Shown here one piece after another: positions 5,210-58,712 of a DNA stretch of 64,000 nt. Source of the DNA: Planctomycetota bacterium. Lineage in GTDB: Bacteria; Planctomycetota; Planctomycetia; Planctomycetales; Planctomycetaceae. The position numbers and the translations under genes were made by a program. The notes under the pieces were generated by a model, which was not told the DNA's origin, did no database searches, and was given only the letters and a program-made list of their open reading frames with translations. Numbering within the stretch: the first letter of the stretch is position 1; each line of letters begins with the position of its first letter. Location: the NCBI GenBank assembly GCA_003388505.1, contig QQVO01000018.1, forward strand, positions 62,001 to 126,000, given 5' to 3'.

Positions 5210-5389
5210 GGGTATCAGACTGCGACCGAATCGCGTTGAGTTCTTCCATCAAGGCGGGGCCGCCATGACCGCCCCACCCTTCCGGATTTCAATTCATGCC
5301 CGTCCACCGACCGCGAACCAACCACCCCGATGAACAACAGACCCGACTCACCTCACTGACAACTGAAAACTGAAAACTAAAGCTGACAA

Positions 5390-7291
5390 CTACTTCACCA
5401 CACGCATCAGTTCATCCACCGACGTCACGCCGCGCACAACCAGCCGCAGCCCCTCTTCCTTCATATACAGCATTCCGTTCTTGCGGGCCTCCGCGCGGAG
5501 CGTCGACATCGGCGCTTTGTCCCGCACCAGATCCCGCATGCGGTCGTTGACAACCAGCAGCTCAAAACATCCGATCCGCCCCCGGAAGCCGAGTCCGCCG
5601 CAGTGCGTGCAGACTTCCTCGCGTTTCTTCGGCGGGCGGAAGAACTGCTTCACCTTCTCGGGCGGGAGACCCGCCTGCTTCAGCAACTCCGGCTTGGGAC
5701 GATACCCCTCCTTGCAGTGCGGACACAGCCGCCGCGCCAGCCGTTGCCCGAGGATCGCCGACACCGAACTCGACAGCATGAACGGCTCGACGTTGAGATC
5801 GAGCAACCGGTACAGCGCCGTGATCGTGTCGTTGGCGTGCACCGTCGAAAACACCATGTGTCCCGTACTGGCCGCCTGGCAGGCGATCTTGGCCGTTTCC
5901 TCGTCTCGAATCTCGCCGATCATCACGACATCGGGGTCTTGACGCAGCACGCTCCGCAGCGATCCGGCGAATGTCTGGTTCGCCTTCGTGTTGATCTCGA
6001 TCTGCGTCACGCCCGACATCTTGTACTCAATCGGGTCTTCGATCGTGATGATGTTCGACTGGTCGGCGTCGAGACTGTTGAGGCAGGCGTACAGTGTGGT
6101 CGACTTGCCGGCGCCCGTCGGTCCGCAGCAGAGAAACATGCCGTGCGGCTGGTGCGCCACGGCGCGGATCGACTCCTGCATCTGCTTTCGCATCCCGAGC
6201 TGCTCGAGCGAACTGACCGCATTGGCCTGGTCCAGGATGCGGATGCTCAGCTTTTCGCCGAACCGCGTTCCCTGCGAGGCCACGCGGAAATCGACCTCGC
6301 GACCCTCGACGATCGCCCCGAAGCTGCCGTCCTGAGGGCGGCGGCGCTCCGTGATGTCCATCGCGCTGAGGACTTTGAAAATATTGACGATCGCGTCGCC
6401 GATCGGCTTGTCGAAAGGCTCCGTCGGGTACATCACGCCGTCGATCCGGATCCGCGCGCCGGTCTCTTCGTCCTTCGGCTCCAGATGGATGTCGGTCGCT
6501 CTCCGCAGAATGCTGTCGTACACCAGTTCCCGCGCCGCCATGTACCCCTTGGAATTCTCGACCTGCCGCGTCCGCGCCTCGTCACGCTGACCCGTGCGCG
6601 TCTTCCCGATGAACTGGATCGGCGGACCCAGCGTCGACTCCACCACCGACCCGCCGCCGATGTGAATGCCGACCTTCGCCAGCATCCGGATCGCCCAGCC
6701 CTTGATGTGCCGCGGCGTCAGCACCTTCCCCGACTCGGGCACGTGCTGGTTGCGCTCATACACATACAGTCCCGCCACCGTGCCGTACACGCCCAGCATC
6801 ACGATCAGACCGATCAGGTACAGCGGAATCAGCAGCACCGCCAGAAACGCGGCGATCCCGCCGACCAACTGGATCGAGTTCCAGAACTCCGGCCGCAGCT
6901 TGAGCGAATGGCTGTCCTCCGCCACCCAGTAGGACGTGTAGGTCCAGTAGACGAACAGCAACAGCACGGGAAACAGCTTCAGCAGACTGAGATACCAGCC
7001 GCTGATCACGATCGTCGTGGTGCCCTGCCCGAAACGGTTGCCGCGGTCAAACCCGCTCGGATAGGCCGACCAGCGGCCGGAACTGCCGGAGCCGGCCGGC
7101 GTCATGGCCGGTGCGGGAGTTCCTGACGGCGGAGCCGCCCCCGTCGTCGGCGCTTCACCCGGTGCGGGAGGAGTCGGCGGTTGGGCGGCGGCCGGAACAG
7201 ACAACAGACCGATCAGGCCGACCAGCAACGGCGTCCACCACCATGCGCCCCCCCGGGCGGCCCGACCGAAACAGGTTTGCGATGGCTGCAT
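5390..7291 (-). CDS. GspE/PilB-type secretion ATPase with N-terminal membrane region
   Basis: 633 residues. The C-terminal half is a type II secretion/type IV pilus assembly ATPase: Walker A GPTGAGKSTT, Asp box IITIEDPIEY, Walker B GEIRDEETA, His box STVHAND, and a zinc tetracysteine (CPHC ... CTHCGG). The N-terminus is unusual: a probable signal peptide (WWWTPLLVGLIGLLSVPAAA), a Pro/Ala-rich linker, then three hydrophobic segments at ~90-185 instead of the usual soluble N-terminal domain. Start at ATG 7291 chosen because it gives the signal-like N-terminus. It follows the PilT-type gene by 98 bases and probably powers pseudopilus or pilus assembly at the inner membrane. Confidence 0.93.
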   Translation of the reverse strand: MQPSQTCFGRAARGGAWWWTPLLVGLIGLLSVPAAAQPPTPPAPGEAPTTGAAPPSGTPAPAMTPAGSGSSGRWSAYPSGFDRGNRFGQGTTTIVISGWYLSLLKLFPVLLLFVYWTYTSYWVAEDSHSLKLRPEFWNSIQLVGGIAAFLAVLLIPLYLIGLIVMLGVYGTVAGLYVYERNQHVPESGKVLTPRHIKGWAIRMLAKVGIHIGGGSVVESTLGPPIQFIGKTRTGQRDEARTRQVENSKGYMAARELVYDSILRRATDIHLEPKDEETGARIRIDGVMYPTEPFDKPIGDAIVNIFKVLSAMDITERRRPQDGSFGAIVEGREVDFRVASQGTRFGEKLSIRILDQANAVSSLEQLGMRKQMQESIRAVAHQPHGMFLCCGPTGAGKSTTLYACLNSLDADQSNIITIEDPIEYKMSGVTQIEINTKANQTFAGSLRSVLRQDPDVVMIGEIRDEETAKIACQAASTGHMVFSTVHANDTITALYRLLDLNVEPFMLSSSVSAILGQRLARRLCPHCKEGYRPKPELLKQAGLPPEKVKQFFRPPKKREEVCTHCGGLGFRGRIGCFELLVVNDRMRDLVRDKAPMSTLRAEARKNGMLYMKEEGLRLVVRGVTSVDELMRVVK

Positions 7292-19346: not shown

Positions 19347-19642
19347 CCTGTCGTTTACACACATCGCTCGATCCTCGATTGAGTGACTCTCCGAGAGTTG
19401 CGAATGGAACGCGGATGGCCACGGATGGGACCGATTTTCGCTGGTTGCTTTCTGTGGAGCGTAGAGTGTTCACGCCTGGGTCGATGCGGTCTCGCCGCTG
19501 CCGCGTCTAGAAGGAATTCCCCGTAAGATCCGTGCTGATCCGCCAAATCCGCGAAAATCTGTGTCCTGTTCGAGAATCCCGAGAATCCCTTGCGCCCGGT
19601 TGGTCGCGGCTGGGCCCAATCCGAGTTGTGTATAATTGACAG
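19347..19642. repeat. ~290-bp MITE-like repeat (family A), copy 1
   Basis: Starts with CCTGTCGTTTACACAC and ends with an inverted relative (GTGTATAATTGACAG). Inside are GAATGGAACGCGGATGGCC, GATTTTCGCTGG and near the end GTGCTGATCCGCC and GCGAAAATCTGTGTCCTGTT. Aligns end to end with 32126-32412 and 54671-54958. No open frame of its own. Fills most of the gap 19284-19711. Confidence 0.9.
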
Positions 19643-21446: not shown

Positions 21447-22595
21447 GTGAGCGGCAAACGCAAGAGAAAAGTTCGCGTCGCATTCTCGAAGAACCGTACC
21501 AAGCGGACTCGATCTCAGGATCTGACGCGACGGGCGCTCCGCGACATAGAGTCGGTGGAGGATCTGACCACAGAAGAGCGCGTCTCCGGCAAAGGGGATC
21601 TGACGCGGCGGCGGACGGTGATCGCCTCGGGCGATTCGACCGCAGACACCGACCAACCGGTGATCGACGTCGACGAAACGGAATGCCGTCGCGGGCGGGT
21701 GCTGTACGTCATCGGGGCGAACCGCTGCCGGGTGCGGATGGACGAGACAGGAGAAATCGATTGCACCGTCCGCCGGCGAGTGCGGACGATGGCTCGCGAC
21801 GCGCGGAACGCCGTGGTCGCGGGAGACCGGGTGACGCTGCGGATCGTCGACGACGGATCGGGCGTCATCGAACGGGTGGAGTCCCGCACAACGGCGCTGT
21901 CTCGCGTCAGCGGCCGCCGGGAACACGTCATCGCCGCCAACGTCGATCTGGCGGTCATTGTCGTCTCGGCGGCCGACCCACCGTTGAAACCTGGTTTGAT
22001 CGACCGTTTCATCGTCAGCGCGGAGCAGGGCGATCTGAAACCGGTGGTCTGCATCAACAAGGTGGATCTCGACGACCCGGTCCGCTTGCAGCCGATCGTC
22101 GGCACGTACGCCCGGCTCGGCTACCACGTCGTGCTCGCGAGCGCGGCGACGCGGCGGGGACTTTCCCGCCTCAAGCAGATTCTCTGCGGGCGCCAGGCTG
22201 TTCTGACAGGGCAGAGCGGGGTCGGCAAGACATCGTTGCTGAACGCGCTGCAGCCGGAGCTTCGCCGCCGCACGCGGGAAGTGAGCGCGGACTCCGGGAA
22301 GGGGCGACACACAACGCGCGTGGCGGAGATGATTCCACTTGCAACGGGAGGGGCGGTCGTCGACACGCCGGGCATTCGCCAGCTTGAACTGTGGGACGTC
22401 GAGGCGGGCGAAGTGGAAGCGTATTTTCGCGAGTTTCGCCCGTTTGTCGCGCGGTGCCGATACCCGAGTTGTCTGCATCTGCACGAAACGGAGTGCGCCG
22501 TTCGGGATGCCGTGAGGGATGGTTCTATCAGCGTCTCGCGTTACACAAGTTACGTGAGAATCATCGGCGACGAAGACGGGGCGACCGGCGAGTGA
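21447..22595 (+). CDS. rsgA: Ribosome small subunit-dependent GTPase RsgA
   Basis: 382 residues from GTG 21447. Circularly permuted GTPase: G4 NKVDL (~210) precedes G1 GQSGVGKTSLLNAL (~258) and G3 DTPGIRQ (~315); a zinc site (CRYPSCLHLHETEC) follows at ~340. An OB fold lies at ~85-155. The first ~75 residues are a basic, low-complexity extension not usual in the family. RsgA helps mature the 30S subunit. Directly downstream of the FHA gene, an association also implying co-expression. Confidence 0.94.
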   Translation: MSGKRKRKVRVAFSKNRTKRTRSQDLTRRALRDIESVEDLTTEERVSGKGDLTRRRTVIASGDSTADTDQPVIDVDETECRRGRVLYVIGANRCRVRMDETGEIDCTVRRRVRTMARDARNAVVAGDRVTLRIVDDGSGVIERVESRTTALSRVSGRREHVIAANVDLAVIVVSAADPPLKPGLIDRFIVSAEQGDLKPVVCINKVDLDDPVRLQPIVGTYARLGYHVVLASAATRRGLSRLKQILCGRQAVLTGQSGVGKTSLLNALQPELRRRTREVSADSGKGRHTTRVAEMIPLATGGAVVDTPGIRQLELWDVEAGEVEAYFREFRPFVARCRYPSCLHLHETECAVRDAVRDGSISVSRYTSYVRIIGDEDGATGE

Positions 22596-32125: not shown

Positions 32126-32412
32126 CCCTGACGTTTACACACGTCTCTCGATCCCCGTTCGAGCGACTCTCCGAGAGATTCGAATGGAACGCGGATGACC
32201 ACGGATTGGACCGATTTTCGCTGATTGCTGTCTTGCGTGTCGACGCCATGCGAGCCGGACCGATGCGGTCTCGCCGGTGCCGCCTTTTGAAGGAATTCCC
32301 TGAAAAACCGTGCTGATCCGCCGAATCCGTGAAAATCTGTGTCCTGTTCGGGAACCCCCTGGGCCCGGTGTCTCGGCACCGGGCACGAGACGAGTCTTGC
32401 GTTACTGACAGG
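32126..32412. repeat. ~290-bp MITE-like repeat (family A), copy 2
   Basis: CCCTGACGTTTACACAC at the left end, TTACTGACAGG at the right. Shares with the other copies CGAATGGAACGCGGATGACC, GATTTTCGCTGATTG, GATGCGGTCTCGCC, GTGCTGATCCGCCGAATCC and AAAATCTGTGTCCTGTTC. Occupies most of the gap 32077-32470. Confidence 0.9.
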
Positions 32413-32470
32413 TTTTCAACCGGTCCAAACCAGCTCCGTTTGGTGTTTCCACTCTCGAAGACTCCATCGC

Positions 32471-51070: not shown

Positions 51071-51637
51071 GTCTCTCCTCGATTGCCTGGCGACCTTCGG
51101 TACCGCCCCCGTCGCGCGCAGTGGCAGGACGGGCGGCCGAGCGGGCGGCGCTGCATCCAGCCGGGTGACGACGTGGGATTGTACGGTTTTGGAGGCGGAT
51201 CCGTCCAGAAGATTGGGAAACACCGACGTCCTGAGGGAGTTTCCGCAGCCTCAGGGCTCGATTTCGCCGGTCGAAGTCCCGACGCCTCAACATCAGGGAA
51301 GGAGGGGAGTCGGCCCGGATCGAACCTGCAGTGGTTGCTGCATCAGAATGTGCCCCCAAATCCAGTCACAATCAAATCTTGGAGCGAGAGATCGACCCTT
51401 TTCGATGCATTCGCAAACCGGTCACAAGAGCCGCATCAATCGGCGAAACTTCGGCGCATTGCCCAACCTGGTCGACTGCGTTCACCTTTCCGAATGCTCC
51501 GGCCGCAATCCCTCCGCCGCGACGCTCCGGGCAACCGTCCGAGAACGCCCGATGTTTTGCGTTCGCGCCCGCTGTGCTAGAGTGATTTCACTGCACACAC
51601 CGACTTGAAAATCGGGACGCCACCAGGAGAACAATCG
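51071..51637. other. Divergent intergenic region of ~570 bases
   Basis: Separates DUF1573 (minus) from the thioredoxin/NHL gene (plus). TGCTAGAGT at 51575-51583 could be an extended -10 for the plus-strand gene. No gene, repeat or RNA recognised. Confidence 0.4.
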
Positions 51638-53725
51638 ATGCCGCGGATGCACGACGCTGAACACCGACCGACCGCTTGGAACGTAACGGCCTGGGCGCTG
51701 CCTGCCGCGTTCCTGTTCGCCATCGCTGCGGCGCTCCCGGCGCAGGACTCCGACGACTCCCCCGCTGACCCGGACCCGGCGGAAGCGGAAACCAAAGAGA
51801 ACCCGTTCCCCGGCCGCTTTCCGGCCCCCAGCCTCGACGGCGGAACCGAATGGTTCAATACGTCCGCTCCGATCAGCCTGCGGGAACTTCGCGGCAAGGT
51901 CGTCGTCCTCGACTTCTGGACCTACTGCTGCATCAACTGCATCCACGTGCTGCCCGACCTGAAGTACCTCGAAAAAAAATACGCCGACCAGTTGGTCGTC
52001 ATCGGCGTCCACGCCGCCAAGTTCGACAACGAAAAAGACTCGGAGAACATCCGCAACGCCATCCTCCGCTACGAAATCGAACACCCGGTCGTCAACGACG
52101 CCAACGACGTGATTGCTGCGAAATACCAGTTTCGCGCGTGGCCGCAGCTTGTCATCATCGACCCCGAGGGCAAATACGTCGGTTATCACACCGGCGAAGG
52201 CATCCGTGATTTCTTCGACTCGGTCATCGGCAAGATGGTCGACTACCACCGCGAGAAGGGAACGCTGGATGAGACCCCCGTCCGCTTCGATCTGGAACGC
52301 GACGATGTCCAGCCCGGCCCGCTGAGATACCCCGGCAAGCTTCTCGCCGACGAAGCCGGCGGACGTCTCTTCATTTCGGACAGCAACCACAACCGCATCG
52401 TCGTCAGTTCGATGGACGGCAAGCTGCTGGACGTCATCGGCACGGGCGCCATCGGCGCCGACGACGGCCCGTATGATGAGGCCACCTTCGATCATCCCCA
52501 GGGCATGGAACTGGTGGGCGAGACCCTGTACGTCGCCGACACCGAAAATCACCTCATCCGCACCATCGACCTGCAGCAGCGCACCGTGGCCACGCTCGCC
52601 GGCACCGGCGTGCAGTCCCGCCGCAGGCTGCTCGGAGGACCGCTCCGGCAGACCGCTCTCAACAGTCCCTGGGCGCTGCGTCACCTGAACGGCGTCCTCT
52701 ACATCGCAATGGCCGGCCCGCACCAGTTGTGGAAGCATGAGCTCGGCGGTGAGACGGTCGAGGTTTTCGCCGGCACCGGCGCCGAAGACATCGTCGACGG
52801 GCCGTTGGAACTCTCCGCGCTGGCCCAACCTTCCGGAATCACCACCGACGGCGAAGTCCTCTATCACGTCGACAGTGAAGGCTCGGCCGTCCGCAAGGTC
52901 ACTCTCGGCGACGACGGCGAAGTCACCACGATCGTCGGACCGCACGATGTTCCCCGCGCTCTGTTCGAATTCGGCGACGTCGACGGCGTCGGCGATGAGG
53001 TCCGGTTGCAGCATCCGATCGGACTCGTCTACCACGACGGCTTCATCTACGTCGCCGACACGTACAACCACCGCATCAAGCGCGTCGACCCCGAGACTCG
53101 CACGTGCGAAGCCTGGCTCGGCACCGGGGAATCCGGGGCGTCGCTTGAGCCGACCCAGTTGTTCGAACCGTCCGGGCTCGCAGCGGCCGGCGACACCCTC
53201 TTCATCGCCGACACCAACAACCACCGCATTCTCGCCGCCGACATCGAAACCGCCGCTGCCCGGGAATTCACCGTCGAAGGCCTTGAGCCGCCCGCCCCGG
53301 TCAAACCGAGTCCGCGCGAATCCAGCGAACCGGACGCGGTCGAAGTCGCCGCCCGGCAGGTGAAGCCGGGAGAGGCGCTCCGCTTCCATATCAGCTTCGA
53401 GCTTCCCGAAGGATTCAAGCTGAACAAACTCGGCCCGGTGGGCTACACCGTCCGCGCCGGCGAAGATCAGCAACTCGTTGCAGTGGACCACCTCGACGCC
53501 CGCAATGAAGCCGAGAAAGGGGAGATGGAAGCGACCATCGACGTCCCACTCGCCGCCGCCGAAGGCAAAGGGACATTCGAACTGCTCCTCACCTACACCT
53601 ACTGCCGCGAAGGAACCGGCGGCGTCTGCCGCTTCGCACAGCAGAAGTGGAGCATCCCCGTCGAAGTGACGCCCGACGCCGCCGCGGAAGAAGTCAAGCT
53701 GACCGCCTCCCCGGGAGGGGAGTAG
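51638..53725 (+). CDS. Thioredoxin-like/NHL-repeat protein (NHLRC2 type)
   Basis: 695 residues from ATG 51638 (AGGAG ~10 bases upstream). N-terminal signal (AWALPAAFLFAIAAALPA), a thioredoxin/TlpA-like domain at ~70-215 with the redox motif WTYCCINC and FRAWPQLVIID, then five to six NHL beta-propeller repeats at ~230-550 (PQGMELVGETLYVADTENHL, IGLVYHDGFIYVADTYNHRI and similar) and a C-terminal beta domain with FHISFELPEGFKLNK. Same architecture as eukaryotic NHLRC2. Extracytoplasmic redox or scaffold role inferred. Confidence 0.92.
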   Translation: MPRMHDAEHRPTAWNVTAWALPAAFLFAIAAALPAQDSDDSPADPDPAEAETKENPFPGRFPAPSLDGGTEWFNTSAPISLRELRGKVVVLDFWTYCCINCIHVLPDLKYLEKKYADQLVVIGVHAAKFDNEKDSENIRNAILRYEIEHPVVNDANDVIAAKYQFRAWPQLVIIDPEGKYVGYHTGEGIRDFFDSVIGKMVDYHREKGTLDETPVRFDLERDDVQPGPLRYPGKLLADEAGGRLFISDSNHNRIVVSSMDGKLLDVIGTGAIGADDGPYDEATFDHPQGMELVGETLYVADTENHLIRTIDLQQRTVATLAGTGVQSRRRLLGGPLRQTALNSPWALRHLNGVLYIAMAGPHQLWKHELGGETVEVFAGTGAEDIVDGPLELSALAQPSGITTDGEVLYHVDSEGSAVRKVTLGDDGEVTTIVGPHDVPRALFEFGDVDGVGDEVRLQHPIGLVYHDGFIYVADTYNHRIKRVDPETRTCEAWLGTGESGASLEPTQLFEPSGLAAAGDTLFIADTNNHRILAADIETAAAREFTVEGLEPPAPVKPSPRESSEPDAVEVAARQVKPGEALRFHISFELPEGFKLNKLGPVGYTVRAGEDQQLVAVDHLDARNEAEKGEMEATIDVPLAAAEGKGTFELLLTYTYCREGTGGVCRFAQQKWSIPVEVTPDAAAEEVKLTASPGGE

Positions 53726-53903: not shown

Positions 53904-54521
53904 ATGCCGACCTCGGAGGAGAGTTCCTCAACTTCGATCTCGCTGATCGAACGGGCCCGCGACTCCGATCCCGAGGCCTGGCGCAGGCTGTGCCTCGTTT
54001 ACGGTCCGCTCGTTTATCGCTGGGCACGCGTCGTCGGTTTGCAGGACAGCGACGCCGCCGACCTGGGGCAGGAGGTCTTCCGGACCGTGGCTGCGCGGCT
54101 GGCGAGCTTCGAGAAGGACCGGCCCGGATCGACGTTTCGCGGTTGGCTCAAAAAGATCACCCGCAACAAGATCGGCGACCATCTCCGCCGACGGGAGAGA
54201 CACGCCCAGCCGGTCGGCGGGACAACCGCCGTTGGTCTTTGGCAACAGATTCCCGAAGACCTGCCGGACGCATCCACCAGCGACGGTCCCTTCGACGCCG
54301 AACGGGTCACGCTCCACCGACTGCTGGAGACGATCCGGCTGGAGTTTGAACAAAGCACCTGGCGGGCGTTCTGGCTGACCACGGTCGAAGACCGGCCGAC
54401 CGATGAAGTGGCGGAAGAACTCGGCCTGACCCGGCCCGCCGTGCGGCAAGCCAAGTACCGCGTCCTCCGCCGGTTGCGGACCGAGATCGGATCGCACGAC
54501 GGTTCAGGGAACAGCGTGTAA
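53904..54521 (+). CDS. ECF sigma factor paired with a Ser/Thr kinase
   Basis: 205 residues from ATG 53904. Region 2: LIERARDSDPEAWRRL, YGPLVYRWARVVGLQDSDAADLGQEVFRTV, FRGWLKKITRNKIGDHLRRRE; region 4: STWRAFWLTTVEDRPTDEVAEELGLTRPAVRQAKYRVLRRL. This fits the planctomycete ECF groups encoded beside Ser/Thr kinases. The kinase gene follows, but the ~720-base gap between them (54522-55238) is occupied by repeat A copy 3 and other hairpins. Confidence 0.93.
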   Translation: MPTSEESSSTSISLIERARDSDPEAWRRLCLVYGPLVYRWARVVGLQDSDAADLGQEVFRTVAARLASFEKDRPGSTFRGWLKKITRNKIGDHLRRRERHAQPVGGTTAVGLWQQIPEDLPDASTSDGPFDAERVTLHRLLETIRLEFEQSTWRAFWLTTVEDRPTDEVAEELGLTRPAVRQAKYRVLRRLRTEIGSHDGSGNSV

Positions 54522-54644
54522 CCTGACAATGACACACGTCTCGCGCGAGCGATGGCGGCTTGCTGCGCTGCGCTCAGTCCAGCCGCGGCCACCCGATCGA
54601 TTCGCCATTCGGAGTGCGTCGTCCCACTGCGGCCACTCGGTCAA

Positions 54645-54690
54645 GATGTGTGTAACTGACAGGTTTCCAACCCTGTCGTTTACACACATC
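54645..54690. repeat. Palindromic junction of family A end sequences
   Basis: GATGTGTGTAACTGACAGG (54645-54663) and 54672-54690 are 17/19 complementary. The left arm is the right-end sequence of a family A element, the right arm is the left end of copy 3, so a solo right end lies back to back with a complete copy. Confidence 0.75.
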
Positions 54691-54958
54691 TCTCGATCCC
54701 CGATCGAGTGACTCTTCGAGAGATTCGAATGGAACGCGGATGACCACGGATGGGACCGATTTTCGCTGATTGTTTTCTTGCGTGTCGACGTCCTGCGCGC
54801 CCGAATCGATGCGGTCTCGGTGCTGCCGCCTCGTGAGGAACACCCGACGAAATCCGTGCTGATCCGCCGAATCCGCGAAAATCTGTGTCCTGTTCAAGAA
54901 TCCCTGGGCCCAGTTTCTCGGGGCCGGGCCCCAGCCGAGTTGTGTGTAACTGACAGGG
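54671..54958. repeat. ~290-bp MITE-like repeat (family A), copy 3
   Basis: Left end CCCTGTCGTTTACACAC, right end GTGTGTAACTGACAGGG. Same internal landmarks as copies 1 and 2 (GAATGGAACGCGGATGACC, GATTTTCGCTGATTG, GTGCTGATCCGCCGAATCC, GCGAAAATCTGTGTCCTGTT). Located between the ECF sigma gene and its kinase. Confidence 0.9.
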
Positions 54959-54978
54959 TTCAAAACCTGTTCTACGGG

Positions 54979-55010
54979 GCTGTAGCCGAAGTCGTGAGAC
55001 TTCGGACGAA
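54979..55010 (+). repeat. Hairpin repeat, family D
   Basis: GTAGCCGAAGTCGTGAGACT then TCGGACGAA; the stem is CCGAAGTC/GACTTCGG. The opposite-strand copy is at 15303-15331. Confidence 0.75.
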
Positions 55011-55238
55011 CACCGAAAGACCCCTCGGAATTCTCACGACGCCCGCTACGCCGCCGGGCTCCGCGTGCGCGGGCAGGATCGTAATCTGTTATGCACACAC
55101 AGGTTGCGTCATGCAGCGGCCCCCGAACTGTCTTCCTGAGAAAAAACCGTGTGACGCGCTCACAATCTTACCTATGGCCGCACGAGAAACCCCGGCACCT
55201 CACGCCGCTCGCGCCGCCGCTCACCCGGAGTCGCTGCG

Positions 55239-58200
55239 ATGCACCCCAGCCGAGAAGAACTCGCAAACTACCTCCTGGGCAAACTTCCCGAGGATCAGGC
55301 GGAGTCGGTGATCGCGCACCTGGAGGGATGCGTCGCCTGCGACGACACGATGCAGTCCCTGCAGCCCGCGCCCGACACGGTGATCGAGAAGCTGCACGGC
55401 GGGCCGCCGGCCGATCCACTCGCGGAGGAATCAAGCTGCCGCGACATGGTCCAGAGGATCAGTGAACTGGGCCACCCGTCCGCCGGGGGCGGCCCGAATC
55501 CCGACGCGGAAAGCCGGACGCTCCAACTCGAAGAGACCGCCGCCGTCCGCGAGTACCGGCTGCTCGAAAAACTCGGAGAGGGCGGCATGGGCGCCGTCTA
55601 CAAGGCGCTGCACACCAAGCTCGACAAGACGGTCGCCATCAAGCTGCTGCCGGCCCATCGCATGGAAGACGCCGCCAGCGTCGCCCGCTTCGAACGAGAG
55701 ATGAAGGCGGTCGGCAAAATGGAGCACCCGCACATCGTCGGCGCGCGCGACGCCGGGGAAGCCAACGGCACGCACTACCTGGTGATGGAACTGGTCGAAG
55801 GCGAAGACCTGGCCAATCTCTCGAAGCGGTTCGGCGCCTTGCCGGTTGCGGAAGCGTGCGAGTTGATCCGGCAGGCGGCGCTCGGCTTGCAGCACGCCCA
55901 CGAACGGGGCACGGTCCACCGTGACGTGAAACCGTCGAACCTGATGCTGGCCAAGGGGCCGCCCGCAACCGTCAAGATTCTCGATCTGGGACTGGCCTTG
56001 CTCGAAGAGGGTCCGGTGACGGACGGACGGGAACTCACTTCCACCGGCCAGCTCATGGGCACGATCGATTACATGGCGCCCGAGCAGGGAGTCAGCACGC
56101 ACGACGTCGACGTGCGGGCCGACATCTACAGCCTGGGGGCCACGCTCTACCGTTTGCTCGCCGGCCGCGCGCCGTTCGGCGGAGCGGGATTCGAGACTGC
56201 GATGAAAAAGCTCGCCGCGCTCGCCGGTGAACAACCGCAATCGCTCCGGGAACTCCGGTCCGACCTGCCGCACGAACTGGCGGCGATCGTCCACCGCATG
56301 CTGGCCAAGAACCCCAACGATCGCCCGTCAAGTGCGGACGAAGTCGCCCGCTTGCTCGAACCGTTCGCCGCGGAGGCCGACCTCGCGTCCCTCTTCGGCG
56401 ACCCACCGCCCGCCGCGAAACAGCCGCGACCGCCCGGAAGCGGGACGTCCACCCGGCCGGCTGAAGATCGGCCGCTCGCTCGCGGGGCCGCAGCGCAGCG
56501 ACGCGGGCACTCGATCGTCGCCGGCGGCATCCTCGCGCTCGTTGCGCTGCTCGGCTTCGCGGTCTTCAAATTCACCACCCGCGACGGGACAGTCATCGTC
56601 CAGCTCGACGCCGAACGGGACATCACCTCGATCGAAGTCGACGGGACAGGCGTCGAATGGACGCTTGCCGGGGACGACCGTACGTATCGCTTCGACGTCG
56701 AACCGGGGCCGGTTTTTTCGATTGTCCTCAACACCGCCGACGGCGCGACGATTCACGCCGAGATTCCTGCCGACGGACTCACGATCCACGCCGGCCAGCC
56801 GTATCAGTTGACGGCCGCCGTGGTTTCGGACTCCGAGCCCGGGCCGGCCCCGCAGCTCACAGTCGCCGAGCGCGAGCGGGCGGTGATCGATTGGGTCCGC
56901 TCCCTCTCGGGAACGATCGGCGGCGGCAATCCGCAGATCGGGTACGTGGTCGTCCCCCCGGAAGACCCGCTGCCCGAAGGACGATTCGACCTCGTGACGG
57001 TCGATCTGCAACGGCAATCCATCACCGACGCCGACCTCAAGCGATTCGACGACCTGCCATTCTTCACCACGCTGATTCTCACCGGGACTCCGGTCACCGA
57101 TGAGGGACTCGCCAATCTGGGCGAGCTGCCGGAACTCCTGGGCCTGTTCCTCAGCGAGACCGAAATTGCCGACGCCGGTCTGGCCCAACTGAGCCGCTAT
57201 CCCAAACTCGAAACGCTCCACGTCGGACAGACGCATGTCACCGACCGAGGCCTCGAGTCCCTGCGAAAGTGCCCCAGGATGCAGTGGCTCTTCCTTTCCG
57301 GCTGTGACGTCACCGACGACGGCCTCCAAGTCCTGGCCGAACTTCCGAAGCTGCGGCACCTGCACCTGGTCGACACCCATGTTTCTCGCTCCGGCGTCGA
57401 ACGGTTGCGGGAAGCGCTCCCCCAATGCCGGATCGAATCGAACTTCGGCGACTTCAGGCCTTCGACCAGTCCCGACCGCGCCGTCGCCGAGTGGGCCCAC
57501 GCGCTGGGCGGGACGGTCGGACTGGGCGGGTCGTCGGTCGGTTACGTCACGGTCGGGCCGGACGACGAACTGCCGGACGGAGACTTCTCGCTCATTGTCC
57601 TCGACGTGTCCGGACAGCCGATAGCCGATTCGGACCTGGCCCGCTTCGACGGCCTCAACGAGTTCTCGACGTTGATTCTCGGCGGAACCCCGATCAGCGA
57701 TCAGGGCGTCGCGCTGCTCGGCGATCTGCCCAATCTCATGGGCGTCTACCTCGGCGGCTCGAATCTGACCGATGCGGGCCTCATGGATTTGGCGGAACGC
57801 TATCCGAAAATCCGCGCCTTCCACGCCGGTGGGACCAACATCACCGACGCCGGCATCCCGGCATTGCTGCTGTGGGACGACCTCCTCGAACTCCGCATGG
57901 AAAACCCCGCCGTCACCGACGCGGCGATCGACACGCTGGTGCAGATCCCGTACCTCCGCGCGGTCTACTTGAAAGGCAGCGGAGTCACCGAGCAGGGGGT
58001 CAACCGGCTGCACGCCGCCAAACCGTGGTGCGAAATTCACTCGGATTTCGCAAGCTTTCCCGAGCCGCCCATCGAGGGCCGCGCCTCCCTCCGGTTCAGC
58101 GGCATCCACAGTCACGTCGACATCCCCACGCTCCGCTACGACGCCACGCATCCGATCACGATCGAAGCCAGCGTCCGCCGCGAACCGCCGCTCGGCGAAT

Positions 58201-58712
58201 ACGCCGAACTCATCACCAACGGCATGACGACCGAAGGACCGCCCTGCGCCGTGCTCAACTGGAACCGCGAGTCGGGCTGGCTGTTCACCGTGATGGCCGA
58301 CGAACCCCAATCGGCCTCCCACCCGGAGCCGGCCCCCGGACCGCTGCGGATCGCCGGTGTCTGGGACGGCTCACAGTTGTCGCTCTACTTCGACGGCCAA
58401 CTGGTCTCGCGCCGTGAGTACAGCGCCACGCCCGACGACGACCGCCAGCCGGGCCACTTCGTCATCGGCGCGGAACAGACCCTCAATGGCATCGACCGCT
58501 ACTTCCACTTCCTCGGCGTCATCGACGAAGTCCGCATTTCGAGCGTCGCCCGCTACGCAGACGATTACACCCCGGTCGATCGGTTCGAAACCGACCGCCA
58601 CACAATGGCCCTCTATCACTTCGACGAAGGCCAGGGCGACGTGTTAATCGACTCCTCCGGCAACAACCACCACGGCCGCATCATCGGCGGCGTCTGGATC
58701 ACCCGCGAATGA
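55239..58712 (+). CDS. Ser/Thr protein kinase with zinc-finger, LRR and LamG-like modules
   Basis: 1157 residues. Residues 1-40 carry HLEGCVAC, a ZAS-like HxxxCxxC site (H27, C31, C34). Kinase domain ~106-385: GEGGMGAVYKA, catalytic Lys in AIKLLP (135), HRDVKPSNLML (227-229), DLGLALLE, TIDYMAPEQ. Membrane segment ~425-445. Outside: beta domain, leucine-rich-type repeats ~588-933 (T.VTDEGLANLGELPELLGLFLSETEI pattern, two blocks) and a LamG-like domain ~948-1150 ending TMALYHFDEGQGDV. A receptor kinase whose cytoplasmic side could hold the ECF sigma factor through the ZAS-like site; that link is inference. Confidence 0.94.
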   Translation: MHPSREELANYLLGKLPEDQAESVIAHLEGCVACDDTMQSLQPAPDTVIEKLHGGPPADPLAEESSCRDMVQRISELGHPSAGGGPNPDAESRTLQLEETAAVREYRLLEKLGEGGMGAVYKALHTKLDKTVAIKLLPAHRMEDAASVARFEREMKAVGKMEHPHIVGARDAGEANGTHYLVMELVEGEDLANLSKRFGALPVAEACELIRQAALGLQHAHERGTVHRDVKPSNLMLAKGPPATVKILDLGLALLEEGPVTDGRELTSTGQLMGTIDYMAPEQGVSTHDVDVRADIYSLGATLYRLLAGRAPFGGAGFETAMKKLAALAGEQPQSLRELRSDLPHELAAIVHRMLAKNPNDRPSSADEVARLLEPFAAEADLASLFGDPPPAAKQPRPPGSGTSTRPAEDRPLARGAAAQRRGHSIVAGGILALVALLGFAVFKFTTRDGTVIVQLDAERDITSIEVDGTGVEWTLAGDDRTYRFDVEPGPVFSIVLNTADGATIHAEIPADGLTIHAGQPYQLTAAVVSDSEPGPAPQLTVAERERAVIDWVRSLSGTIGGGNPQIGYVVVPPEDPLPEGRFDLVTVDLQRQSITDADLKRFDDLPFFTTLILTGTPVTDEGLANLGELPELLGLFLSETEIADAGLAQLSRYPKLETLHVGQTHVTDRGLESLRKCPRMQWLFLSGCDVTDDGLQVLAELPKLRHLHLVDTHVSRSGVERLREALPQCRIESNFGDFRPSTSPDRAVAEWAHALGGTVGLGGSSVGYVTVGPDDELPDGDFSLIVLDVSGQPIADSDLARFDGLNEFSTLILGGTPISDQGVALLGDLPNLMGVYLGGSNLTDAGLMDLAERYPKIRAFHAGGTNITDAGIPALLLWDDLLELRMENPAVTDAAIDTLVQIPYLRAVYLKGSGVTEQGVNRLHAAKPWCEIHSDFASFPEPPIEGRASLRFSGIHSHVDIPTLRYDATHPITIEASVRREPPLGEYAELITNGMTTEGPPCAVLNWNRESGWLFTVMADEPQSASHPEPAPGPLRIAGVWDGSQLSLYFDGQLVSRREYSATPDDDRQPGHFVIGAEQTLNGIDRYFHFLGVIDEVRISSVARYADDYTPVDRFETDRHTMALYHFDEGQGDVLIDSSGNNHHGRIIGGVWITRE

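Follow-up and report, generated by a model that had tools for sequence, protein, structure and literature searches.

A predicted anti-sigma domain at the N-terminus of a planctomycete receptor-like kinase encoded beside an ECF sigma factor

The genes of an extracytoplasmic function (ECF) sigma factor and a receptor-like serine/threonine kinase lie on the same strand of a 64,000-nucleotide stretch of a Planctomycetota genome (GCA_003388505.1, contig QQVO01000018.1, positions 62,001 to 126,000), hereafter called the window. The kinase begins with a predicted zinc-binding anti-sigma (ZAS) domain and, judging from sequence, is probably a membrane receptor that doubles as the anti-sigma factor of the adjacent sigma factor. 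A preliminary description of this DNA had placed the two genes at 53904-54521 and 55239-58712, and the open reading frames found there encode 205 and 1157 residues, respectively.

The N-terminal domain, the kinase, and the sigma factor

The HxxxCxxC motif of the kinase reads HLEGCVAC (residues 27-34), and H2, upstream of it, is a possible fourth zinc ligand. The Pfam family zf-HC2 matched residues 5-34 with 24.7 bits when the whole protein was searched and 26.7 bits when only residues 1-100 were used (cut-off 22.2). In an alignment of 67 kinase N-termini (A1), which includes some without HxxxCxxC, H27, C31, and C34 are each conserved in at least 90% of the members, and zf-HC2 matched 42 of the 67 at an E-value of 0.01. 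The profile made from this alignment recruited known anti-sigma factors from the PDB, specifically DdvA (E-value 1.7e-6), ChrR (3.1e-6, over profile positions 1-98), RslA (3hug; 1.4e-4), and RsiW (7.2e-4), below which only unrelated proteins followed, with E-values of 0.13 and worse. The ZAS-like motif that had been pointed out in the preliminary description is thus corroborated by both the zf-HC2 and the profile matches, and assignment of the N-terminus to the ZAS-type class I anti-sigma domains is supported. Additionally, the start of a CHAT-domain protein (PDB 8rot, 8rw5) matched the ZAS profile (E-value 1.7e-4, residues 1-42) and may represent another built-in anti-sigma domain.

The AlphaFold2 (AF2) model of the domain contained helices at residues 5-12, 18-28, and 32-41, followed by a short helix, with confidence values (pLDDT) of 95-97 over residues 1-40; the Hx3Cx2C motif spans helices 2 and 3, the placement required of the zinc form of class I anti-sigma domains. 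A second AF2 model, covering residues 1-387, returned identical helices, a low-confidence linker at about residues 78-98, and a confident kinase domain. In class I anti-sigma domains, helix 1 binds σ4 and helix 4 binds σ2 (PMC7406223), and the further helix listed in Table 1 is a candidate for the latter role. When the ZAS model was searched with Foldseek, the top 20 of 23 rows were complexes of sigma and anti-sigma factors, comprising five pairs (SigE-ChrR, SigL-RslA, AlgU-MucA, SigW-RsiW, and SigK with its anti-sigma factor), with weak E-values (best 0.34). VIA-align superposed kinase residues 1-54 on ChrR residues 5-58 (52 residues, 2.9 Å, Z 7.2) with an offset of 4 at both ends; the same offset throughout would put H2, H27, C31, and C34 on ChrR positions 6, 31, 35, and 38, the zinc ligands of ChrR.

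The rest of the protein contains a complete Hanks-type serine/threonine kinase domain, with the catalytic lysine, the HRD motif, and the DFG/DLG aspartate all present and with K135, E154, H227, D229, K231, N234, and D249 invariant in an alignment of 66 sequences (A2). Because the chain has one hydrophobic helix, the ZAS and kinase domains would be cytoplasmic and the leucine-rich repeat (LRR) and LamG-like units external. As had been proposed, kinase and anti-sigma domains are combined in a single predicted membrane protein with LRR and LamG-like units.

The sigma factor fell short of the curated thresholds for the planctomycete subfamilies TIGR02984 (35.1 vs 183.75 bits) and TIGR02989 (34.3 vs 124.55 bits). 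Its σ2.2 region reads DAADLGQEVF and retains D50 and D53, and in 72 aligned members these two positions are acidic in 97% and serine or threonine in none. The ECF43-type loss of the DAED acids in σ2.2 is accordingly absent from this sigma factor; the adjacent serine/threonine kinase gene is a feature that it shares with ECF43. Residue T10 is serine or threonine in 72/72 members, and S13 in 92%.

Linkage and co-variation of the ZAS domain with the sigma factor

A census of the window's own genome gave 61 matches to PF00069, equivalent to 55 genes after six split ones were joined. HxxxCxxC was present in four of these 55 kinases, the window kinase and those on contigs C2, C14, and C27, and these four adjoin exactly the four sigma factors closest to that of the window (E-values ≤1e-31; next 2e-7). 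The motif was found in none of the other 51, a few of which had only 0.3-0.6 kb upstream covered; among them were seven located beside other sigma types (Fisher 2.9e-6). These seven (L172, L169, L188, L195, L197, L198, and L217) have other N-termini without the ZAS motif, so more than one type of ECF-kinase module coexists in the genome. The census was used in place of a control of 40 unlinked kinases, with the motif in one, since that set was biased, its members having been chosen because their BLAST matches began no earlier than residue 57.

Homologs of the sigma factor were searched for in the own genome and 58 relatives, and 91 distinct loci were examined as a sample of the nearer homologs among the matches listed (the window, 29 returned with the search, one from a kinase search, and 60 lower-ranked ones, a few rows being skipped). 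A kinase with HxxxCxxC adjoined the sigma factor in 71 of the 91, most often in tandem downstream (60), less often divergently (7), upstream on the same strand (2), or on the opposite strand (2); the remaining loci had a tandem kinase without the motif (7), a cut N-terminus (2), or no kinase in the flanks examined (11). A hidden Markov model (HMM) for which 63 tandem pairs supplied the domain sequences matched all 71, including 11 in other orders that were absent from the HMM (31-49 bits), and gave no match in nine kinases with the N-terminus or the motif missing. A sigma factor and a kinase encoded next to each other had been described as a pair of the kind found in planctomycetes, and pairing of the ZAS kinase with an ECF sigma factor is supported as the prevailing arrangement among the sampled relatives. 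Relatives with the two genes unlinked, which had been named as evidence that would refute the proposal, were found, but they are a minority: a sensitive rescan of the 11 kinase-less loci recovered the domain in L050, L059, and L063 and pieces of a kinase in L006 and L096, leaving six of 91.

Several loci deviate in other ways. The seven tandem kinases without the motif are those of L042, L021, L054, L022, L093, L095, and L043, and in five of these a segment resembling DPL.EESSC of the window kinase seems, by eye, to be retained. About six kinases lacking the motif gave the visual impression of carrying degenerate or zinc-free ZAS domains, a reading that is not claimed here since none matches the domain HMM. 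In L063, a frame of 121 residues with the ZAS motif (5302-5664) lies on the strand opposite the sigma factor with no kinase found nearby, and is possibly a separate anti-sigma factor. The long sigma frames of L009 and L017 were considered as sigma-kinase fusions and dropped, the kinase being on the other strand.

When distinct tandem pairs were counted, with a few loci from further searches added and L186 removed, the motif was found in 63 of the 72 that had this sigma type and in none of the eight that had other types (Fisher 8e-7). The domain profile, whose matches extend to short anti-sigma frames that probably stand alone, gave hits in 155 of 195 genomes from this phylum; in the ten top genomes, five of which (window included) had been in the profile, the best match lay in a kinase in 10/10 and within 1.5 kb of this sigma type in 9/10. 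A contig scan with patterns from the sigma factor alone (one sequence) returned six loci, three of them with an adjoining ZAS kinase. These three belong to Stieleria tagensis, a Gemmataceae metagenome-assembled genome (MAG), and a Verrucomicrobiia MAG.

Distance matrices of the 63 pairs correlated at 0.53 for sigma factor and ZAS domain, 0.64 for sigma factor and kinase, and 0.42 for ZAS domain and kinase. The ZAS-sigma correlation was 0.37 given the kinase (largest of 500 permutations 0.195), and the ZAS-kinase correlation was 0.13 given the sigma factor; this order was kept in 98.5% of 200 half-sample draws. Six kinase segments of the length of the ZAS domain gave the reverse pattern, with 0.01-0.24 for the sigma factor and 0.64-0.79 for the rest of the kinase. 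The ZAS domain thus appears to track the neighboring sigma factor more than its own kinase chain, as a binding partner would; kinship was handled by partial correlation and permutation only, and because the sequences are related and the domain is short, this result is taken as supportive only.

The spacer between the two genes

The sigma factor and kinase genes are separated by 717 bp, of which 284 bp belong to a miniature inverted-repeat transposable element (MITE). The MITE-like copy noted in the preliminary description is well substantiated: a 20-base pattern taken from one of its ends, with up to three mismatches, matched 88 times genome-wide, compared to 0 for the reversed control. Of 279 candidates in the genome, 40 were scored, namely the window locus and 39 copies with identities of 84-92%; nine short matches were also obtained. 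The window has a further copy at 32128-32415, and the end of the element also matches near 19353. When 22 copies, 20 from elsewhere in the genome and two in the window, were compared side by side by eye, exact target duplications of 10-11 bp were seen at L108, L114, and L120, and imperfect ones at other copies. The element thus has the marks of a MITE, being short, with terminal inverted repeats, target duplications, and many copies. Its ends share 16/19 and 15/19 bases with the Tn5 mosaic end. Five DDE_Tnp_1 matches in the genome, examined as candidates for an autonomous partner, had no MITE-like ends in the flanks examined, and no full copy was found in the 58 relatives (up to 12 candidates scored in each), four of which gave short matches of 23-45 bases. 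A frame through the MITE ends reads PVSYTHLD, a string known from adapter contamination, so a copy might be taken for adapter sequence, from which the ends nevertheless differ; some copies are also flanked by target duplications. The insertion is real and was seen only in this lineage. Pieces of the imperfect inverted repeat beside it, within about 54981-55049, recur at three further genomic sites, seen as short matches on C24 and C3. No terminator-like site was found inside the spacer by a simple scan.

From the sigma stop codon to the ZAS histidine, the 63 tandem pairs with the motif span 70-1586 bp, with a median of 207. The distance in the window, 798 bp, ranks 62 of 63, and without the MITE it would be about 510 bp and still rank 59 of 63; the MITE therefore explains only part of the long gap. 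That the pair is meaningfully split by a repeat insertion, as had been described, is not supported, given this range of tandem gaps, the existence of other gene orders, and a tentative promoter 3' of the MITE.

This candidate kinase promoter element, AAAAAACCGTGTGACGCGCTCA, belongs to a motif of 22 bases, from the upstream regions of 30 long-gap kinases, that scored 99.6, compared to 67-77 in six shuffles, with unequal search effort (40 random starts for the real data, 15 for the shuffles). At 8 bits or more, the motif was present in 13 of the 30 kinase upstreams (most of which built the matrix), 4/30 of a reverse-complement control, and 6/62 sigma upstreams. With a matrix built without it, from sites picked after a motif search that had included it, AAAAAACCGTGTGACGCGCTCA scored 16.3, a score reached by 1/2000 shuffles of the stretch; window position 21467 scored the same, and others scored 12-15.5, three of them inside MITE copies. 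Word counts upstream of the sigma and kinase genes gave nothing usable. At L058 (1590-3130, on C27 of the same genome), about 1.5 kb with frames of 113 and 230 residues separates sigma factor and kinase, and a 28-base sequence (26/28) precedes both the first frame and the kinase, perhaps as a shared promoter.

Table 1. Features of the sigma factor-kinase locus, in window positions.
Feature	Position	Strand	Basis or remark
ECF sigma factor, 205 aa	53904..54521	+	Sigma70_r2, Sigma70_r4_2, and TIGR02937 above cut-off
Left copy of imperfect target duplication, GGTTTCCAACC	54662..54672	.	By eye
MITE copy, 284 bp, CTGTCGTTTACACACATCT...AGTTGTGTGTAACTGACAG	54673..54956	+	Inverted ends resembling Tn5 mosaic end
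Right copy of imperfect target duplication, GGTTCAAAACC	54957-54967		8/11 identical to left copy
Imperfect inverted repeat beside MITE	54975..55056	.	75% complementary
Candidate kinase promoter element, AAAAAACCGTGTGACGCGCTCA	55141..55162	+	3' of MITE; tentative
Receptor-like Ser/Thr kinase, 1157 aa, with predicted N-terminal anti-sigma domain	55239..58712	+	Open reading frame, Pfam, hydropathy
Predicted ZAS three-helix bundle, residues 1-41	55239..55361	+	zf-HC2, profile A1, AF2; likely ligands H2, H27, C31, C34
Further helix, residues 65-78; candidate σ2-binding helix	55431..55472	+	AF2 models; role suggested by helix 4 of class I anti-sigma domains (PMC7406223)
Hanks-type kinase domain, residues 106-366	55554..56336	+	PF00069, 167 bits
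Predicted transmembrane helix, residues 425-443	56511..56567	+	Hydropathy 2.51, simple window; sole hydrophobic helix
Pair of LRR-like units in the ectodomain, residues ~559-739 and ~759-940	56913..58058	+	LRR_6; 43% mutual identity over 182 positions
LamG/ConA-like domain (Laminin_G_3), residues 957-1108	58107..58562	+	PF13385, 43.8 bits

Proposed mechanism, alternatives, and known systems

The comparisons show the domain content, the gene linkage, the sequence kinship with anti-sigma domains, the co-variation, and the conservation of catalytic and acidic residues; from these we infer sigma binding and inhibition, the phosphorylation target, the ligand, the promoter, and the membrane topology. 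At rest, the ZAS domain at the kinase N-terminus would hold the sigma factor at the membrane. With its σ2.2 acids intact, the sigma factor should bind RNA polymerase once free and thus needs holding back, for which the ZAS domain is a natural means. Binding of a ligand, or contact with a surface, through the LRR/LamG ectodomain would activate the tethered kinase domain, whose catalysis is presumably used, given the invariant catalytic residues; it may phosphorylate the ZAS-kinase linker region or the bound sigma factor, with T10 and S13 as candidates, whereupon the sigma factor would be released. The spacer MITE would be a lineage-specific insertion of little effect. By a narrower balance, it is also favored that planctomycete ECF-linked receptor kinases as a whole class are one-protein transmembrane anti-sigma factors that unite sequestration, catalysis, and external sensing in a single chain, in which case ECFs now classed as phosphorylation-activated and devoid of an anti-sigma factor would be held and released by the kinase.

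Several observations weigh against this reading. Besides the weak Foldseek E-values, the Z of 7.2 on ChrR is below the level that safely separates small helical bundles, and a transmembrane helix passed the hydropathy cut-off in only 35 of 50 ZAS kinases with enough sequence. The seven tandem kinases beside this sigma type without HxxxCxxC gave no HMM match even with filters off, so some kinase partners do without a ZAS domain; no kinase or ZAS domain was found for six of the 91 sigma factors, five of which had only 1.4-1.7 kb downstream covered. Conversely, one kinase with a ZAS-like N-terminus (L135, G051:C173; 37 bits) has no sigma factor within 2 kb upstream. Lastly, the kinase-sigma correlation given the ZAS domain is 0.54, stronger than that of ZAS domain and sigma factor.

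This last value fits direct phosphorylation and speaks for a switch of the EcfP/PknT type, in which the sigma factor is inactive until phosphorylated by the kinase and the ZAS domain is a mere docking site. Reviews regard the groups of ECFs linked to serine/threonine protein kinases (STPKs), several of which include examples from planctomycetes, as activated by phosphorylation (PMC8999054, PMC8103513), and the constancy of T10 and S13 points the same way, although by our own reading these residues may be helix caps. In EcfP, however, STTA replaces the acidic DAED, and phosphorylation is needed and restores the charge (PMC8999054, PMC8103513); with positions 50 and 53 nearly always acidic here and never serine or threonine, that missing-charge logic does not apply, and such a switch is considered unlikely, if worth keeping in view. 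A ZAS domain that no longer binds the sigma factor and persists as a relic or structural zinc finger, or serves the kinase as a redox sensor in the cytoplasm, is improbable: the seven tandem kinases lacking both motif and HMM match would suit this idea, but the domain follows the sigma factor rather than the kinase in both linkage and co-variation. Least credible is that the MITE uncoupled the pair and thereby ended co-expression of kinase and sigma factor in this strain. The restriction of full copies to this genome, within the limits of the relatives' search, and the second longest gap of 63 are in its favor, yet the gap is long even without the MITE, other gene orders exist, divergent ones included, the tentative promoter element is located past the MITE and ahead of the kinase, and the simple scan found no terminator-like site in the spacer.

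The domain resembles the class I ZAS anti-sigma factors ChrR, RslA, RsiW, and DdvA in its predicted Hx3Cx2C helix bundle and in its gene being beside that of an ECF sigma factor, but differs from them in sharing one chain with a Hanks-type kinase and a receptor ectodomain; in the classic ZAS proteins, other modules are the output partners. The ECF43 pairs EcfP/PknT and EcfK/PknS likewise have an ECF sigma gene adjoining a serine/threonine kinase gene; unlike EcfP/PknT, the window sigma factor keeps two σ2.2 acids and the window kinase carries a predicted anti-sigma domain. The same gene pairing is seen in the STPK-linked groups ECF59, 61, 62, and 217, which have planctomycete examples. Pairing of ECF sigma factors with kinases in planctomycetes was already known. 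RsbW, a partner-switching anti-sigma kinase, has a GHKL fold. RsbW combines anti-sigma and kinase activity in one protein, acting on σB and phosphorylating the anti-anti-sigma factor RsbV (PMC4598750), as is predicted here from sequence for the window kinase, which differs in being Hanks-type, predicted to be membrane-bound, and partnered with an ECF.

Outside ECF43, the groups retain DAED or comparable acids and may operate in another way, and a 2022 review leaves open how STPK-linked ECFs that keep acidic σ2.2 residues are controlled (PMC8999054). An anti-sigma domain inside the partner kinase would be a direct and testable answer; if true, sequestration and phosphorylation, two textbook controls of sigma factors, would be merged in one receptor. 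In the main text of a 2024 study of planctomycete kinases, supplementary domain tables aside, zf-HC2, zinc, and anti-sigma are absent (PMC11032199), and no statement of a ZAS-kinase fusion was found in the portions of the literature covered, to which the main ECF classification papers do not belong, such that a prior mention is possible. The ZAS domain may also show which kinase controls which sigma factor in genomes with many of each.

Directly upstream of the sigma factor gene and on the same strand, a gene at 51605-53725 encodes a thioredoxin-like protein with NHL repeats.

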